From Chthonomonadaceae bacterium (GTDB taxonomy: Bacteria; Armatimonadota; Chthonomonadetes; Chthonomonadales; Chthonomonadaceae), in contig DAIDHN010000019.1 of the NCBI GenBank assembly GCA_027459665.1, positions 1-63,612 on the forward strand: 63,612 nt of DNA, read 5' to 3'. This document shows positions 32,065 through 49,640 of the stretch, in pieces (within the stretch, counting starts at the first letter, position 1; each line of letters begins with the position of its first letter). Both the position numbers and the translations under genes were made by a program. The notes under the pieces were generated by a model, which was not told the DNA's origin, did no database searches, and was given only the letters and a program-made list of their open reading frames with translations.

Positions 32065-33165
32065 TTATTCCCATACTCCCCAAAGGGAGAGGCCAAAACC
32101 ATCGCGTCTGTCTTGCTCGCCGCTGCTTTGCGGCGCAAGCCATGCGCCCTCTGCCAGCTCGGCAGGGCTGCCCTGCAGCACGTCAAAAAAGTAGACCGAG
32201 CCTGCCGGCGCCATCCATCGTACGGCTTTGGGTGCGTTGTGCCTCCAGTCCCACCCATGTGCAGGCTCTCTGCGTTTTACCGCCGCGGCAGCCAGCCGAA
32301 GGGTAAGGCTGGGCGCTCCCTGCGGCGTGAACTCCAAGCGGCTGTCGGCAGGGTTCCAGCCTGCTGCAAACAGCGCCGGCGTTGCCAGAAGCATGCGCAC
32401 CCGTTTTGCATTTGCCAGTTTCTGCTGCAGGCTTGCGGGGCAGGCTGGCCAGAGCTGCTCATCGGCCGTGCAAACGGCGGCCAGCCTCCGTTCGCCTCCC
32501 AGCGGGCGCGGGCCGGAAAGGTCTGCTGCATTATCCATGCGCACCAGCATTTCCCATTCTGCCGGCTGGTTTGGGCTGCGGTAGTCTTCCCAGCAGAGCG
32601 AACGCGTAGTGAAAAGCATGGCATCCTCCGATGTGCCAGTAAAAGGGTTGATGCTCACGTGCACTCTTTCTTCCACGGGCAGGCCTTCCAGCTTTTGCGG
32701 CGGCGCAAACTCGCCGCCCTCATGCTGCAGCCACGCGAACAGGTCTTCCTGCTGCCAAAGCGTGTACCCTGCGGCAGGCTTGCCATCACGTGTGACCTGC
32801 AGGGGAAGCAGTCCGTCGGGCAAGTTGACTCCCTGCGGCTTCGAAAACGGGCGCAGTGCCATTACCGAGGCCATACCGTTTTCATCTCCTGCCATCACCA
32901 CCGCATCGGCAGGGGAGGGGTAGACAGGTTTGCCGCACCTGAGCAGCAGCGGTCCGTGGCAGGCCGTCTGCATGGCCATATCCGGGCCGTCTGCCTTCCA
33001 GTCCCACCCAAGCGTTTCGCCCAGGTGCGTGCGCAGCGCTCCTGCGATGCTGGAGGGCAGCGGCATTGGGAGCGTGCGTGCGCTCTGTGCGCCTTCTTCC
33101 TGTGTGAAGGCTCTGCCGTCGCGAAAGAGCAGGGGGTCTATGCCCAGAATTCTCAGTGTGTTCAT
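32065..33165 (-). CDS. cmr3: Type III-B RAMP subunit Cmr3
   Basis: Cmr3 binds the 5' handle of the crRNA together with Cas10/Cmr2. The 366-aa product starts with the family-typical 'LGIDPLLFRDGRAFT' and 'PSSIAGALRTHLGE' and has 'RVHVSINPFTGTSEDAMLFTT' in the middle. Its ATG overlaps the cmr2 stop by 4 nt. Order and length agree with cmr operons elsewhere. Confidence 0.93.
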   Translation of the reverse strand: MNTLRILGIDPLLFRDGRAFTQEEGAQSARTLPMPLPSSIAGALRTHLGETLGWDWKADGPDMAMQTACHGPLLLRCGKPVYPSPADAVVMAGDENGMASVMALRPFSKPQGVNLPDGLLPLQVTRDGKPAAGYTLWQQEDLFAWLQHEGGEFAPPQKLEGLPVEERVHVSINPFTGTSEDAMLFTTRSLCWEDYRSPNQPAEWEMLVRMDNAADLSGPRPLGGERRLAAVCTADEQLWPACPASLQQKLANAKRVRMLLATPALFAAGWNPADSRLEFTPQGAPSLTLRLAAAAVKRREPAHGWDWRHNAPKAVRWMAPAGSVYFFDVLQGSPAELAEGAWLAPQSSGEQDRRDGFGLSLWGVWE

Positions 33166-34784
33166 TTCTGCTCCTTTGCGGCATTGTAGCTGGACAGGAA
33201 GCGTGCTGTTACCAGCATATCTGCAAACGATTGCAGTACCCCCGTAATTTCCCCATACTGCGGCACAAATTCTTCCAGAAGGTTTTGCAGGGTGAGTTTT
33301 GCCGCGCTGTTACCCTCCTTGCGGTTGAGAATGCGCTGCGCCTCGCGCCGTATTGTTTCGTTGTGCAGCTGCACCCCTCTGCATTCTGCGGCCAGCGCTT
33401 TTAGCTCGTACGGAAAGCCGCGCAGGTCTTTCTGCAGTGCGTCTCCCGCTCTTGCCATTTGCTCTACCGGATTGCGGTTCCAGGGCAGGCTCCAGAGCAC
33501 AGGCGATCCGCCGCGAGTATGCAGCGCCAGGGCGAGGGAGTTTCGTTCTTTTTTCGCTTCCTTTTCAGCTGTGCGCACAAAATCGAGAGCAGTTTGCAGG
33601 TTTTCCAGGTGGTGCACCACCGCGACACCTGCAGAGAGTGTGAGGTCTTTTCGGGCGAGAGGCACTCCTACAGTGCTGTGAAACAGTTCTGCCAGTTCAT
33701 GTGCGCACTGCAGCGCTGTGTGCAGCGGCAGCATGGCAAGCACATCATCTCCGCCTGAGTAAATCAGAAAGCCTTGTTGTTTTTCCACCACTCCTTTTAC
33801 GCTGCCGGCAAAGTCGGCAAGCAGGCTGGAAAGTGCCTGATGTTTTTTCCTGCTTTCAAGCTGGTTGATGGCAGCGCCCATTCGGTCGCCATCCGCCTGC
33901 AGCAGCGCATAGTAGCCTGGGAATTCGGATATTTTGAGGCCTCTTTTCAAATCCTTTACCACCGCATCTGCTGCCTGTTTTTCCTGTTCATTCAGCAGTT
34001 CGTCATCGCGGCGGTAAATCAGTTCGCCCGGCTGCAGGCTTTTCCCCCTGGTCAACTGCTCCAGTGTTTCCCATGCCTGCGGGCAGTTTTGTTTTGCTAT
34101 TTCCTCAAAACACCGAAAAGCCATTTCAGAGGTGGAAGGCACCGTTTGGTTGCTGCCCCGAATGCGTTTGAGCAGGGAAACGGCGTCGAGGCGCTCGCTT
34201 TTTTTAAGTCTCAGTTTGTGTTCAACGGTTTTCCACTCCTGTTCTGTACGAATCAGCAGTACCTCCTCGCGGGAAGGATCCAGGCTGCTTTTATTGCGTC
34301 CTTCCCGGCCCTGTACAGGTGCAAAATCGCGCAGCGCCTTGCGCCCTGCCAGCAGCCTGTCGAGTTCACAGCGCACGGCCGGGTATTCTTCTTCTTTTTC
34401 CAGTTCCATCCATGCTGCATAGAACTCCAGAAAAGAGGCGATCTGTTGTTCTGCCTGTTCAGAATCAAGCAGTGCGGGCGGCAAAGTGCCTGCTGCCTCA
34501 ATCCATGCCCCGTGCAGAAATTTTTTTGCCTGCTGTTCGGCTTCTTCGGCTGTTTGCTTTGGGTGTGCAGTGTGAGGGAGCAGCACAAGAATTTTGTTGG
34601 CGGCATCACCTTCGGGGTCAGATGGAAAAATAAGTTCAGCACCCTGATTCCGCAGCCACTGCGATACAGTTTGAGCGGTTTTTACCAGCAGCTGCGAGCC
34701 GGCATGCAAGTCTGCGGTGCGGCGTGCAGCCGCAATAAAATCCTGCACAGGGCCAATAGAGATTGCAAGAAGGGTACCGTTCAC
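33162..34784 (-). CDS. cmr2: Cas10/Cmr2 large subunit without HD domain
   Basis: Cmr2 (Cas10) senses target RNA binding and makes cyclic oligoadenylates. The N-terminus 'LAISIGPVQDFIAAARRT' is the ferredoxin-like Palm start. The first Palm Asp cluster is 'ADGDRMG' at about residue 300, and the cyclase motif 'YSGGDDVLAML' (GGDD at about 344-347) is intact. The protein has only 540 aa; no N-terminal HD nuclease domain exists, and no clear Cys4 zinc finger is seen between the Palm domains. GTG 34784 forms a 4-nt overlap with the cmr1 stop and has AGAGG 8 nt upstream, so it is preferred over GTG 34808 or ATG 34802. Confidence 0.93.
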   Translation of the reverse strand: MNGTLLAISIGPVQDFIAAARRTADLHAGSQLLVKTAQTVSQWLRNQGAELIFPSDPEGDAANKILVLLPHTAHPKQTAEEAEQQAKKFLHGAWIEAAGTLPPALLDSEQAEQQIASFLEFYAAWMELEKEEEYPAVRCELDRLLAGRKALRDFAPVQGREGRNKSSLDPSREEVLLIRTEQEWKTVEHKLRLKKSERLDAVSLLKRIRGSNQTVPSTSEMAFRCFEEIAKQNCPQAWETLEQLTRGKSLQPGELIYRRDDELLNEQEKQAADAVVKDLKRGLKISEFPGYYALLQADGDRMGAAINQLESRKKHQALSSLLADFAGSVKGVVEKQQGFLIYSGGDDVLAMLPLHTALQCAHELAELFHSTVGVPLARKDLTLSAGVAVVHHLENLQTALDFVRTAEKEAKKERNSLALALHTRGGSPVLWSLPWNRNPVEQMARAGDALQKDLRGFPYELKALAAECRGVQLHNETIRREAQRILNRKEGNSAAKLTLQNLLEEFVPQYGEITGVLQSFADMLVTARFLSSYNAAKEQK

Positions 34785-35935
34785 AACTGTTTCCTCTGCC
34801 ATTTGCACTGGGTCAGGTAATCTGCAAGGAACTGGCGCACCGGCATTTTCTGTATTTGCAGCGGACCATCTGCCTGCTGCAGCGGGCTTTTGGTTGTTTC
34901 TAGTGAAGTGATCTGCGTAACAGAAGGCGCAGTCAGAATGAGGATGGCAGCACTGTACTGCTTCTCGCCGGTGCGGAGCGGCTTGACTATTATTGGCGAG
35001 GCAAGGCGCGTGTTTTTTCCGCTGCCCTGCAGAGTGGTATTGTGGTGTTCTTCATGAAGAAAATGGTATACGATGGGCAGGCCCAGCTCTGCTTTTGGAA
35101 ACCGGGCTGCCTGCCAGTCTTTTTCACGAATGGCTGTTGCATCTGGCCAGCGAAATTCACGCTTTGGATCAATGTCGCGCCCCAGCCTGAAGAGTTTCCA
35201 TTCGTTTACGGCAGTTTGCCATGCGTTGTCTGCATCGGCACACTGTTTCCAAAACAGGCCCGCGCCCTGCAGCACCGGGAACAGGTGATCTGTGCCGCTC
35301 TGCGTAGCGGGGATATCCATTGGCCAGCACACCGGCCGACCATTCATATGTGCCTCCATGCTGCCGCATCCACGCCGGGTGCGCGCACCTATGCCGCCAA
35401 ACAGCAGCCATGCCCGCAGCGCGCCCTCTATTTGCTGCTGCAGATGGGCAGGAAAGTCGAGCTGCAGGGTGAACTCTACCTTCTGCAGGCCGGATGCTTG
35501 CGGTTGATCATTGTCTTCGTTAAAAGGAAACAGCGCGTATGCGGGATGGTCGCTTATTTTCGGATCCAGACTTGAATAGGATGTTTTACTGCCCTTCTGG
35601 CTGATATGAATCGTGATGGCTGTTTGGCAGTCGGGTGTCTGGCCGGGTTTGCCTTTGTGTTCCAGCGCTGCCTCGCCCCAGCAGGCTGCCTCTGCTGCAA
35701 ACATTTCTTCTGTGCTTCGGTAGTTTGCGCCATAGAGCGCGCGCCACCAGAATCTGAGGTGACCGCGGATAGCGGCCGGGCGTACCGGAGACTGTTCATC
35801 TACTTCACGGGCCTGAAAGCTGCCTCCAAACATGGGGGTAACCAGCTTGATTTTTGCCTCCAGCCTGGCCCTTTTCGGGCGCTGGGGGGCTTCCCATTTC
35901 GGTGGTTCGGGTAGATTGCGGCTCAATGCTGACAT
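34781..35935 (-). CDS. cmr1: Type III-B RAMP subunit Cmr1
   Basis: Cmr1 sits at the 3' end of the crRNA in the Cmr complex and helps capture target RNA. The 384-aa product contains the family signature 'LVTPMFGGSFQAREVDEQSPVRPAAIRGHLRFWWRAL' in residues about 31-67 (given here as its position; key residues are the GG and the RGHLRFWWR loop) and a RAMP Gly-rich stretch 'GGIGARTRRGCGS'. It is the first gene of the seven-gene operon and follows the consensus promoter at 36035-36063 with a leader of about 93 nt. Confidence 0.93.
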   Translation of the reverse strand: MSALSRNLPEPPKWEAPQRPKRARLEAKIKLVTPMFGGSFQAREVDEQSPVRPAAIRGHLRFWWRALYGANYRSTEEMFAAEAACWGEAALEHKGKPGQTPDCQTAITIHISQKGSKTSYSSLDPKISDHPAYALFPFNEDNDQPQASGLQKVEFTLQLDFPAHLQQQIEGALRAWLLFGGIGARTRRGCGSMEAHMNGRPVCWPMDIPATQSGTDHLFPVLQGAGLFWKQCADADNAWQTAVNEWKLFRLGRDIDPKREFRWPDATAIREKDWQAARFPKAELGLPIVYHFLHEEHHNTTLQGSGKNTRLASPIIVKPLRTGEKQYSAAILILTAPSVTQITSLETTKSPLQQADGPLQIQKMPVRQFLADYLTQCKWQRKQL

Positions 35936-36034
35936 CTCCTCCCTTCAAGGCGGATAAGAGTTTGGGCAAGGCACAATGGCTTGAAATGCGGTTAAAAGAG
36001 GCGTACGCAAACGAGTAAAGCAACCTGACAGCAA

Positions 36035-36063
36035 ATTATAACAGGTGCTGTTTCTTCTGTCAA
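36035..36063 (-). promoter_or_regulatory. Consensus sigma-70 promoter of the cmr operon
   Basis: Read on the minus strand, TTGACA (36063-36058) and TATAAT (36040-36035) are separated by exactly 17 bp. Both boxes are perfect. Transcription should begin near 36028 and run into cmr1. No operator palindrome is obvious around it, which suggests strong constitutive expression. Confidence 0.85.
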
Positions 36064-38373: not shown

Positions 38374-38398
38374 ATGAATGTCTACTACTGATTGTGGG

Positions 38399-39159
38399 CT
38401 TTTAACCGCACCATTGTGGAATGGAAACGGGATGGCGGATAGCTCTGCGCGGAGCGAATGCACTTTTAACCGCACCATTGTGGAATGGAAACAATCTTAT
38501 TATACTACATATTGCAAACACTACAAAATCTTTTAACCGCACCATTGTGGAATGGAAACCTTCGCAGTCTCTGCCGAGCCCGGCCGGCAATATCAACTTT
38601 TAACCGCACCATTGTGGAATGGAAACTCGAGTTCCTTGATACGGAACTCAAGTTCTGCAATTGCTTTTAACCGCACCATTGTGGAATGGAAACTAGGCGG
38701 CACCGTGACGATTCCTCCCACACAGTGCACTTTTAACCGCACCATTGTGGAATGGAAACGCCTGCGCAGGGTATCAGGGCATGATATCAGGGTACTTTTA
38801 ACCGCACCATTGTGGAATGGAAACTCATCTTCGTAATCTACGACATACGGGTGTTTATGTCTTTTAACCGCACCATTGTGGAATGGAAACAGAAAGAATC
38901 CGACTGCTCCAAAGATTGACGCGCCCGCCTTTTAACCGCACCATTGTGGAATGGAAACCATCGAACATAAACGGCAGCCACTCAATCATCGAAACTTTTA
39001 ACCGCACCATTGTGGAATGGAAACGTGGTGGTGGTTGGTCAGGCAGTCAGTCAGGCAGGGACTTTTAACCGCACCATTGTGGAATGGAAACGCTCATCAG
39101 TGTCGGTTCGGGCTTTTCCGGTAGACTGGCTTTTGACCGCACCGATGCTCAAAATGCAA
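38399..39159 (+). CRISPR. CRISPR array: 11 identical 30-nt repeats, one degenerate repeat, 11 spacers
   Basis: The 30-nt repeat begins CTTTTAACCGCACC and ends TGTGGAATGGAAAC. Repeats start at 38399, 38463, 38530, 38597, 38664, 38730, 38795, 38861, 38929, 38995 and 39062, all identical. A final copy at 39130 matches only its first 14 bases with one change (CTTTTGACC...) and then diverges. Spacers are 34-38 nt long (34, 37, 37, 37, 37, 36, 35, 36, 38, 36, 37... ending with 38, measured between repeat starts less 30). The 3' ATGGAAAC would be the 8-nt crRNA handle after Cas6 cleavage. The leader lies at the left, so new spacers should enter next to 38429. Confidence 0.98.
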
Positions 39160-45543: not shown

Positions 45544-45615
45544 TGCCGGGTAGTGCAGCGGTAGCACAACTGACTCTGGATCAGTAGGTCGAGGGTTCGA
45601 ATCCTTCCCCGGCAG
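45544..45615 (+). tRNA. tRNA-Gln (anticodon CTG)
   Basis: The 72-nt cloverleaf has acceptor arms TGCCGGG and CCCGGCA, an anticodon stem ACTGA/TCAGT with loop CTCTGGA (anticodon CTG, reading CAG), a T arm GAGGG-TTCGAAT-CCTTC and discriminator G. The 3' CCA is not encoded. A short T run follows. The gene converges on the HEAT-repeat protein gene, 10 bp away. Confidence 0.96.
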
Positions 45616-45625
45616 CTTTTTCTCT

Positions 45626-46973: not shown

Positions 46974-47435
46974 ATGGCACAGCAACCTTTTGCGCAGGGG
47001 CGGTACACGGTGGTGAAAGTTGCGAGTGATGAGGAGTATGAGGCGGCGCTGCGCATTCGGTTTGAAGTTTTTGTGAATGAGCAGCATGTACCGCCTGAAG
47101 AGGAGCTGGATGCCTATGATGACTCTGCACAGCATTTTCTGGTGAGACTGGGCGGGGAAGCCATTGGCACAGCGCGTCTGATTGAGAAAGAGGGCGGGGT
47201 GGGCAAGGTGGGGCGTGTTGCAATTTTGCAGCAGCACCGGGGGCAGGGGGCTGGCGCCCTGCTGATGCAGGCGGTGGAGGCATTTGCCGCCCAGCTTGGC
47301 CTGCAGCAGCTCATTCTGGATGCCCAGCTGCAGGCGCTGCCGTTTTATGAGCGGCTGGGATACCGTGCAGAGGGCGAGGAGTTTCTGGATGCAGGAATTG
47401 CTCATTTGCGTATGAGGCGCAGCCTTGTGTGCTGA
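46974..47435 (+). CDS. GNAT-family N-acetyltransferase
   Basis: A 153-aa acetyltransferase of the ElaA-like branch. It shows 'ALRIRFEVFVNEQHVPPEEELD' (residues about 25-46; the 'R..VFV.EQ.VP...E.D' pattern is typical), the acetyl-CoA loop 'VGRVAILQQHRGQGAGALLM', and 'LDAQLQALPFYERLGYRAEG', which carries the catalytic Tyr region. The substrate is not known. ATG 46974 has GAGG about 9 nt upstream. It is divergent from the HEAT-repeat gene (85 bp between starts) and followed by a hairpin. Confidence 0.9.
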   Translation: MAQQPFAQGRYTVVKVASDEEYEAALRIRFEVFVNEQHVPPEEELDAYDDSAQHFLVRLGGEAIGTARLIEKEGGVGKVGRVAILQQHRGQGAGALLMQAVEAFAAQLGLQQLILDAQLQALPFYERLGYRAEGEEFLDAGIAHLRMRRSLVC

Positions 47436-47440
47436 AACAG

Positions 47441-47476
47441 GAAGCGGAACAGGACTGCTTGTCCCTGTTCCGCTTC
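47441..47476. terminator. Bidirectional hairpin between the GNAT gene and the small gene
   Basis: GAAGCGGAACAGG (47441-47453) pairs perfectly with CCTGTTCCGCTTC (47464-47476) around a 10-nt loop. It starts 5 bp after the GNAT stop. The T tract is weak on both strands (TCTGTT on plus, CTGTTTC on minus). It can serve both converging transcripts. Confidence 0.7.
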
Positions 47477-47545
47477 TCTGTTATGAAAATGCAGTGGGGC
47501 GTTGACGCCTGCCGAATGGTTTAGGCAGCAAGTTTGAAATAGTGT

Positions 47546-47710
47546 TTACCCGACTGTCTCGGCTACTTCCTGTCGTGTGTACCCAAGCTCTGCCAGAATA
47601 TCGTCTGCGTCTGTTTCAAGTAGCTCTGCTACTGCGAGTACAAAGTCTGGCGACGGCGTATGTGCGGCGGCATTGTCTACGCTTTTCCACTCGTTGATGT
47701 TTGTTTCCAT
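47546..47710 (-). CDS. Small acidic protein, 54 codons, unknown family
   Basis: ATG 47710 lies 6 nt behind GGGAGGA, a very strong ribosome-binding site, and opens a 54-codon frame ending at TAA 47546-47548. The product starts METNINEWKSVDNAAA and ends with an amphipathic acidic helical part ('FVLAVAELLETDADDILAEL' then 'GYTRQEVAETVG'). It has no Cys, no membrane helix and no signal peptide. A near-consensus promoter lies 72 bp upstream. It could be a small regulator or adaptor, but I recognise no family. The promoter and ribosome-binding site make expression likely. Confidence 0.72.
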   Translation of the reverse strand: METNINEWKSVDNAAAHTPSPDFVLAVAELLETDADDILAELGYTRQEVAETVG

Positions 47711-47781
47711 GGGTTCCTCCCAGGCGCTGGAAATGGGGCAGGCACGTCGTTGTCCTGACCGATGTTAATACATACGAGAGA

Positions 47782-47810
47782 ATTATACTACGAGTTCTCC
47801 CCGGAGTCAA
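47782..47810 (-). promoter_or_regulatory. Near-consensus promoter of the small gene
   Basis: On the minus strand TTGACT (47810-47805) and TATAAT (47787-47782) are separated by exactly 17 bp. The start would be near 47775, giving a 65-nt leader that ends in GGGAGGA. GAGAA and TTCTC flank the spacer as a short inverted repeat. Confidence 0.8.
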
Positions 47811-48086
47811 TAAGATTTTCCGTTTCTTTGTTCCCTGTTTTGCAAAAAGTTTACAATATTTTGTATCAGCAGTAAAAAATGTTTTTTTAGGCGCTGCTTT
47901 CAAAATTCTGTGCCTGTAAGTGCGTTTTGCAATAAGAGCGGCGGCGTATTGAGCTGCCTTTGTATCGCTCAAAAAATGATTGGATGTGTGCAATAATACG
48001 TCAGCAAAATTCTTGAGCGCTGCTGCACTTTTCCGGTACTTTGAGTGACTTGTGTTTGCAGCGCTGCCGGCATAGAGAGCAATAGA
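47811..48086 (+). other. Intergenic region upstream of the glycosidase gene
   Basis: A/T-rich compared with the surroundings and without a convincing gene. A candidate plus-strand promoter, TTTACA (47850-47855) and TAAAAA (47873-47878) with a 17-bp spacer, could serve the gene at 48087, but would leave a leader of about 200 nt. Low confidence. Confidence 0.35.
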
Positions 48087-49640
48087 ATGTTGAACTGGGG
48101 TGATTTCAGGTTTGCGGTATGGACACTTGCAGGCAGAAACGACGCTGCCGCAGAAGTAGACCTGCAGGAAGGCAATGTTGTACGGGTTTGTGTGAATGGT
48201 ACTGTAGAGACAGTGGCGCTTCGATGGGATGTTCCCCCCTGCCAGGGGGTAAGAATACTGGGTGATCACTGGGAGCGTGCATACGGTGATCTGGAGTGGC
48301 GGGGCTGCGTGCCTGAGCGTGTGCTGCCCTGGTACGCACTTTTGTACAATCCTCAGGATGCATCGCTGTTCGGCATAGGGGTGAAAACGGGAGGAGGAGC
48401 ATATGCTTCCTGGCGCATAGACCAGGGGGGAATCACTCTTGTTTTGGATGTACGGTGCGGCGGCAGGCCGGTTGCAAAACAAGGAAGGGTGATAGATGCC
48501 GCCAGGCTGGTGCAGCTAAGCTCAAAAGAGGGGGAAAGCGCCTTTGCATTTGCCTGCCGTTTTTGTGCATTGCTCTGCGACTCGCCGAGGCTGGCTTCAC
48601 GGCCGGTATTTGGCGGCAACGACTGGTACCACAGATACGGGCATATTACGCAGCATACAGTGCGTACTGATGCGGCAAACATTGCTGCCCTTGCGGGGGG
48701 AGGCACGCACCGCCCCTTTTTTGTGATAGATGCCGGCTGGTTCGACAGCAAAGACTGCAACGGCGGCCCCTATGCGCATGGCAATGAGAACTTCCCGGAT
48801 ATGCCTGGGCTGGCGAATGATATTTCAGAACTGGGAGCTGTGCCCGGCATATGGATGCGACCGCTGCTTACTACAGAGCAGGTTCCGCAGAGCTGGCAGG
48901 TTTGCTCAAGCCACCCAAACAGCAGTGCAAATGGCAATACGCTCGACCCTTCTGTGCCCGAGGTGGTTGAAATGGCGAAAACAGATATACGCCGCATGCA
49001 TGCATGGGGATACAAACTGATAAAGCATGATTTTACAACGTACGACATAACAGGAAAATGGGGTTTTGAGGCAAACAGCGGCATCACAAGGGCAGGCTGG
49101 ACGTTTGCAGATACATCGCGTACTACTGTACAGATAATACGCGACTTTTATGCTGCCTTGAGGGAAGCTGCCGGGGATTGCATACTGCTTGGCTGCAATA
49201 CAGCGGGGCATTTGGGCGCTGGATTGTTTGAGGTACAGCGAACGGGCGATGACACAAGCGGCCGCCACTGGGAGAGAACCCGCAAAATGGGTATAAACAC
49301 CCTGGCATTTCGATTACCGCAAAACAACACATTCTTTGCTGCAGATGCAGATTGTGCGGGGCTAACCCAGAGCATACCATGGGAATTGAATAGGCAGTGG
49401 ATTGATTTGCTTGCCCGAAGCGGCACCCCGCTGTTTGTTTCGGCACACCCTGAAGCTCTTGGCGCAGCACAGAAACAGGCCCTGCGCGCTGCGTTTGCCC
49501 GGGCAGAAAAACCACAGCCTCTGCTGGAGCCGCTGGACTGGATGGATACAACGGCGCCGCAAAGGTACAGGCAGGGCGGGGAGACGCTGGAATACTGCTG
49601 GAATGAGTTTGCCGGCAGCGCAGGGTTCTGCCCTGCGTAG
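48087..49640 (+). CDS. Cytoplasmic glycoside hydrolase of clan GH-D (alpha-galactosidase-like, GH36/GH27)
   Basis: A 517-aa enzyme without signal peptide. The N-terminal beta-rich part includes 'WYALLYNPQDASLFGIGVKT'. The (beta/alpha)8 barrel has 'NDWYHRYG', 'FFVIDAGWFD', 'PGIWMRPLL', 'YKLIKHDFTTYD' (Asp in KHD is the candidate nucleophile) and 'VQRTGDDTSGRHW' (candidate acid/base in the R-x-G-D-D segment), then 'AADADCAGLT'. This layout is that of alpha-galactosidases and relatives; activity on other alpha-linked sugars is possible. ATG 48087 is preferred to GTG 48045. The stop lies 6 bp from the stop of the converging gene. Confidence 0.85.
   Translation: MLNWGDFRFAVWTLAGRNDAAAEVDLQEGNVVRVCVNGTVETVALRWDVPPCQGVRILGDHWERAYGDLEWRGCVPERVLPWYALLYNPQDASLFGIGVKTGGGAYASWRIDQGGITLVLDVRCGGRPVAKQGRVIDAARLVQLSSKEGESAFAFACRFCALLCDSPRLASRPVFGGNDWYHRYGHITQHTVRTDAANIAALAGGGTHRPFFVIDAGWFDSKDCNGGPYAHGNENFPDMPGLANDISELGAVPGIWMRPLLTTEQVPQSWQVCSSHPNSSANGNTLDPSVPEVVEMAKTDIRRMHAWGYKLIKHDFTTYDITGKWGFEANSGITRAGWTFADTSRTTVQIIRDFYAALREAAGDCILLGCNTAGHLGAGLFEVQRTGDDTSGRHWERTRKMGINTLAFRLPQNNTFFAADADCAGLTQSIPWELNRQWIDLLARSGTPLFVSAHPEALGAAQKQALRAAFARAEKPQPLLEPLDWMDTTAPQRYRQGGETLEYCWNEFAGSAGFCPA

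Follow-up and report, generated by a model that had tools for sequence, protein, structure and literature searches.

The minus strand of the 63,612-nt window analysed here (Chthonomonadaceae bacterium, assembly GCA_027459665.1, contig DAIDHN010000019.1, positions 1 to 63,612) carries a 54-codon gene at 47546..47710 that is almost certainly a real coding gene, and whose product represents a small-protein family that, judged against Pfam, NCBIfam, PADLOC and PHROGs, is new and lineage-restricted. The sequence data suggest, with a probability of about one half, that this acidic protein acts as an adaptor or antagonist through a helical hairpin and protein contact, with its partner encoded elsewhere.

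The gene has a complete set of expression signals. In particular, a −35 hexamer TTGACT (47805..47810, minus strand) and a −10 hexamer TATAAT (47782..47787, minus strand), separated by a 17-nt spacer, match the consensus at 11 of 12 positions (47810–47782), and of 300 random windows of equal length only 0.3% contain an equally good site. The ATG at 47710 lies 71 nt past the −10 box and is preceded by a Shine-Dalgarno sequence, GGGAGGA (47715..47721, minus strand), read from the sequence; a transcript beginning 7 nt past that box would have a leader of ~65 nt. The frame runs to a TAA at 47546 and encodes a 54-aa acidic protein, METNINEWKSVDNAAAHTPSPDFVLAVAELLETDADDILAELGYTRQEVAETVG, with a conserved core at residues 19–44, a pI of ~4.05, a net charge of −10.4 and no Cys. 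The promoter, 65-nt leader, GGGAGGA and acidic, Cys-free 54-codon frame described in an earlier note made from the letters of the window are thus all present, on the minus strand, and we infer strong expression from the quality of the promoter and the Shine-Dalgarno sequence. Sites with at least 11 of 12 matches number two in the whole window, the other being a 12/12 site at 36063 (minus strand). That site precedes two frames resembling type III CRISPR Cmr1- and Cas10/Cmr2-like genes, with a GGDD motif, and a CRISPR-like repeat occurs close by in 11 copies spaced 64–68 nt apart; together these features occupy 33162–36063 (minus strand) and 38392–39091.

The same note had the frame end before a hairpin, and here the small hairpin directly 3′ of the stop is unremarkable (z −1.22), whereas a strong terminator-like hairpin is present further downstream (47441..47476, minus strand). 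The 106-nt stretch containing it (47440–47545) has a z of −4.69 against shuffles, with none of 200 shuffles folding as stably; the hairpin is followed by CTGTTTC, not by a long T run. With the small gene on one side and a convergent GNAT acetyltransferase gene (46974–47435, plus strand; Pfam Acetyltransf_10, E 1.7e-19) on the other, the hairpin may terminate both genes. Terminator-like hairpins are also seen by eye downstream of the gene in many family members. Other features in this part of the window are its only tRNA gene, a tRNA-Gln with anticodon CTG (45544–45616, plus strand), also found by Rfam, and a 531-codon frame (48045–49640, plus strand) with a weak, below-cut-off Melibiase match (E 0.032) and no NCBIfam match.

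Searches of 61 genomes with the window protein, and then of 291 Armatimonadota genomes with profiles, identified the family in 21 of the 291 genomes, with one strong copy per genome in all 21. The weakest member has an E-value of 2.2e-17; beyond it, the best match of whatever sort is in a 577-codon frame at an E-value of 0.015, leaving a clear gap between the family and noise. By genome family, members occur in 11 of 17 genomes of the window's own family (f1), 1 of 2 in f2 and 1 of 12 in f3, with two more in f15 and six in f24; of the six f1 genomes without the gene, two are only 64% and 73% complete. A scan of 84,980 species genomes returned eight loci, from Chthonomonadaceae (three), Chthonomonadales (one) and unclassified MAGs, using a single peptide pattern that would miss diverged relatives and that returned none of the f15 or f24 members. 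The lineage concerned is Armatimonadota; Chthonomonadia; Chthonomonadales; Chthonomonadaceae. As far as tested, with profile searches confined to this phylum, the family thus appears limited to part of the Armatimonadota.

Comparison of the 21 members indicates that the frame is under purifying selection. Specifically, pN is lower than pS in 210 of 210 pairs (which are not independent), and the 15 least diverged pairs show 0.47–0.90 synonymous versus 0.12–0.28 non-synonymous differences per site. Representative values of pS and pN are 0.81 and 0.12 for G001 versus G011, and 0.77 and 0.21 for the window versus G005 (G001, G005 and G010 are members of f1). Codon entropy in the core is 0.59, 0.29 and 1.63 bits at positions 1, 2 and 3, respectively. 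The short translated gene proposed in the earlier note is supported by this conservation of the frame across relatives, the check that the note had named.

The promoter recurs with the gene. Within the region up to 190 nt upstream, a promoter-like site with at least 9 of 12 matches is present at 20 of 21 loci, and one with 8 of 12 at the remaining locus; among random windows drawn from these loci, a fraction between 0.003 and 0.177 contain an equally good site, for a combined p of 6.5e-17 with relatedness ignored. The −35 hexamer recurs ahead of the gene in relatives, usually in the form TTGAC- or TTGAA-, and most Chthonomonadales members read TTGAC...TATACT. The neighbours vary: the convergent acetyltransferase is common to 5 of 21 loci, three of the 21 have a Mrp/ApbC-like gene upstream, and the ten neighbours scanned with family models are varied and include no XRE gene. 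A search for a partner by neighbourhood was rejected, as 5 of 21 loci is the highest recurrence of any neighbour. Since the promoter and short leader recur while the neighbours vary, the transcription unit persists alone, and the gene is apparently a monocistronic, single-copy gene with its own promoter. A stand-alone small gene of this kind fits the non-operonic gene layout described for Chthonomonas calidirosea, a species of the family that is in culture (PMC4959169).

All 21 members are short (46–65 aa) and acidic (pI 4.05–4.38; net charge −4.5 to −14.3), and 16 of 21 have no Cys. Their alignment shows a conserved central part, with the core PS-x2-[FYW]-[IV]-x-A-...-D-[IL]-L-x-E-x-G-[YF], and a variable C-terminal tail. 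Residues M1 (counting as M the GTG start of one member), P19, S20, A26, D37, L39, E41 and G43 are invariant, and L31 and Y44 are nearly so. An AlphaFold2 model built from a nine-row alignment predicts helices at residues 5–16, 21–30, 35–42 and 46–53, with a pLDDT of ~91 over residues 21–40, a mean of 75.7, and a pTM of only 0.50. Foldseek returned no PDB match to the model at E ≤ 0.001, and two chains from a second fold comparison had Z scores of 2.8 and 2.2, too low for use. An EF-hand reading of ETDADDILAELG was rejected on inspection: the last ligand position is occupied by the invariant Gly43, and the loop Gly position by the invariant Asp37. No convincing or above-cut-off model was obtained from Pfam, NCBIfam, PHROGs or PADLOC (the last checked with 14 members), in agreement with the earlier assignment of the protein to no familiar family. 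A mobile-element origin was likewise rejected, the window protein having no phage or plasmid match at E ≤ 1 and viral contigs containing no confirmed relative.

The core weakly resembles the C-terminal half of an XRE/Cro-CI DNA binding domain. The window protein has weak matches to two Pfam models at corresponding places: HTH_31 (residues 16–37 on model positions 38–60 of 64, at 15.1 bits against a cut-off of 27) and HTH_19 (residues 17–40 on positions 37–60 of 64, under cut-off). A weak match to HTH_3 (residues 39–54 on positions 5–20 of 55) is placed elsewhere and does not fit a half-XRE reading. The best HTH_31 E-value among the 21 members is 0.0022, all the Pfam scores shown are below the curated cut-offs, and the unrelated KRAP_IP3R_bind model is matched by 9 of 21 members versus 5 of 21 for any HTH model. 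PHROGs phage repressor families give weak matches at similar places.

Alignment to a self-written XRE consensus placed the core on helices 4–5 with 89% probability; because of the origin of this consensus, the comparison was repeated with real XRE domains, 17 in number, taken from four genomes of the set. Columns 16–41 of the family profile align with columns 33–58 of the real domains, the C-terminal helices, in the same register. The score of 16.1 is reached by none of 200 column shuffles (mean 8.3, sd 1.7, maximum 13.9), a lenient control that destroys helix periodicity too; the hhalign probability with these 17 domains is only 4.2%, and a profile search of 18 genomic XRE domains reported 16 of them, with a top score of 2.6 bits. 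The family core may follow the register of helices 4–5 of HTH_31, HTH_19 and HTH_3 domains (PS..[FL][IV]..[VL]A..L......LL...GY). The family differs from them in lacking helices 1–3, including the recognition helix (in the window protein, only ~18 residues precede the core), in being strongly acidic, with D37 and E41 invariant, and in scoring under the curated cut-offs. Most likely the likeness is structural, one helix pair resembling another, and it need not reflect shared descent. Neither the XRE likeness nor the recurring leader hairpin described below was part of the earlier note.

Contig 17 of genome G000 (L099, 1–1710, minus strand) encodes a protein that joins an XRE domain to a long, repeat-like C-terminal region, judged by eye to be TPR. 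The XRE-TPR gene, a 612-codon frame, is present in 17 of 17 f1 genomes, at 47–60% identity outside the window's own, and in G027, the sole f3 genome with the small gene, which is like f1 in having both. As a candidate partner the XRE-TPR gene was set aside, its presence not following that of the small gene: the 17 f1 genomes that have it include the six in which the small gene was not found.

The leader contains a predicted hairpin, GGTCAGGAC-AACGAC-GTgCCTGCC (47737..47760, minus strand), which would span approximately +15 to +38, counted from the inferred start; relatives have hairpins at the corresponding place, and many Chthonomonadales members have a predicted hairpin soon after the inferred transcription start. 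Folding of the leaders of 13 Chthonomonadales loci gave combined z-scores of −5.5 when the first 40 nt were taken and −3.8 when 50 nt were, with single loci at 50 nt ranging from clear (G002, −2.8; G008, −2.3) to absent; the window's own leader is no stabler than shuffles (z −0.18 and 0.03 in two runs). The evidence is weak in f15 and f24, for which seven of eight members (L059, a close relative of L058, being excluded) gave combined z-scores of −1.2 at 40 nt and −2.3 at 50 nt. MAFFT alignment of 11 whole leaders misaligned the hairpin, and nine of the 11 hairpins were cut by eye and realigned. The nine were scored in two registers, one of which bulges a 3′ base; either register pairs in ~76–78% of cells, with both-side changes at 3 or 4 of six pairs and with 3 or 4 of 500 shuffles reaching the number of changed cells, counts that lean towards structure, since G005 and G010, whose hairpins have another shape, were left out. 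With up to two mismatches, the hairpin sequence in three genomes finds only this gene's own matches, save one in G002, and three-mismatch matches are no commoner there than in a reversed control. We consider a structured leader in Chthonomonadales members moderately well supported; the hairpin would most simply be an mRNA-stabilising or translation-tuning element of the small gene.

In an alternative reading, the product of the locus is a regulatory small RNA and the reading frame is there by chance, as a strong promoter, a hairpin near the 5′ end, a terminator-like hairpin and a short transcript would all suggest. The earlier note had held that conservation of the RNA in place of the frame would tell against its gene. 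The opposite pattern is found: the ATG (GTG in one member), the frame and the core are kept over 21 genomes, synonymous changes being in strong excess, and it is the leader sequence that diverges; the Rfam matches in the window comprise one tRNA only. Selection at the protein level disposes of a pure small-RNA reading, which appears largely refuted by codon-level conservation and is barely credible as an account of the locus; a second, RNA-level role may exist beside coding. The protein, with its conserved central part and variable tail, could be read as a precursor peptide, with the conserved part as leader and the variable C-terminal tail as product. We regard this as very improbable, given the absence of a recurrent modifying or export gene adjoining, and tails that are short and in which inspection shows no common motif for cleavage or modification.

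Being small and acidic is typical of antitoxins, and this together with the HTH-like resemblance raises the reading that the protein is an antitoxin paired with a toxin, or some other partner protein tied to an operon. This is also highly improbable: no conserved partner gene adjoins the small gene at the 21 loci, where the acetyltransferase gene is convergent (5 loci) and the Mrp/ApbC-like gene upstream (3 loci), and no match came from PADLOC with 14 members or, at E ≤ 1, from phages and plasmids with the window protein. The reading as an acidic, constitutive, RNA-polymerase- or ribosome-associated small factor, rather than a regulator antagonist, agrees with the high acidity, house-keeping type of promoter, single copy and stand-alone unit, but the protein has no similarity to a known factor and the patchy distribution, both within f1 and in another family of the order with a single member among 12 genomes, argues against an indispensable role; we consider this reading unlikely, if less so than the antitoxin.

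The preferred reading, an adaptor or antagonist, would work as follows. Residues 19–44 would fold as a helical hairpin like helices 4–5 of the XRE/Cro-CI domain, carrying the invariant acidic residues D37 and E41 and a Gly-Tyr/Phe end, and this hairpin would bind a partner protein, a step for and against which we judge the odds to be even. As no neighbour is constant, the partner is probably encoded elsewhere; that it is an XRE-type regulator is a doubtful proposition. An antagonist or adaptor is favoured over an enzyme by the small size, over a DNA binding protein by the missing DNA-reading helices and the strongly negative charge, and over a toxin partner by the lack of a constant neighbour. 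A more specific and rather improbable form of this proposal is a "half-XRE" microprotein, a free-standing, constitutive and acidic version of the last two Cro/CI helices that would disable a regulator encoded elsewhere, with the leader hairpin as a private cis-regulatory element.

A close known comparison is SinI of Bacillus subtilis, which antagonises SinR and, at 57 aa, is of similar size; it offers the model of a small protein akin to one portion of an XRE regulator and blocking that regulator by heterodimer formation (PMC3163267, PMC5864091). No SinI model is among the Pfam families matched at E ≤ 1 by the 21 members. SinI acts via its dimerisation region, not helices 4–5, and sinI adjoins sinR, in contrast to the small gene, whose scanned neighbours include no such regulator.

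Our literature search found no publication joining Armatimonadota, a small protein and unknown function. As a lineage-restricted family of fewer than 100 codons with no assigned function, the family resembles the conserved orphan families of smORF catalogues (for example, PMC11364881 and PMC11796252). It constitutes, with little doubt, a real protein family unnamed in the libraries searched. Few members of the phylum are in culture, and its best-known species has a scattered genome without operons; thanks to its promoter, leader and terminator, the small gene should be easy to test in the cultured species. If it is true that the protein blocks a regulator, it would be a bacterial microprotein made from half of a very common DNA binding domain.
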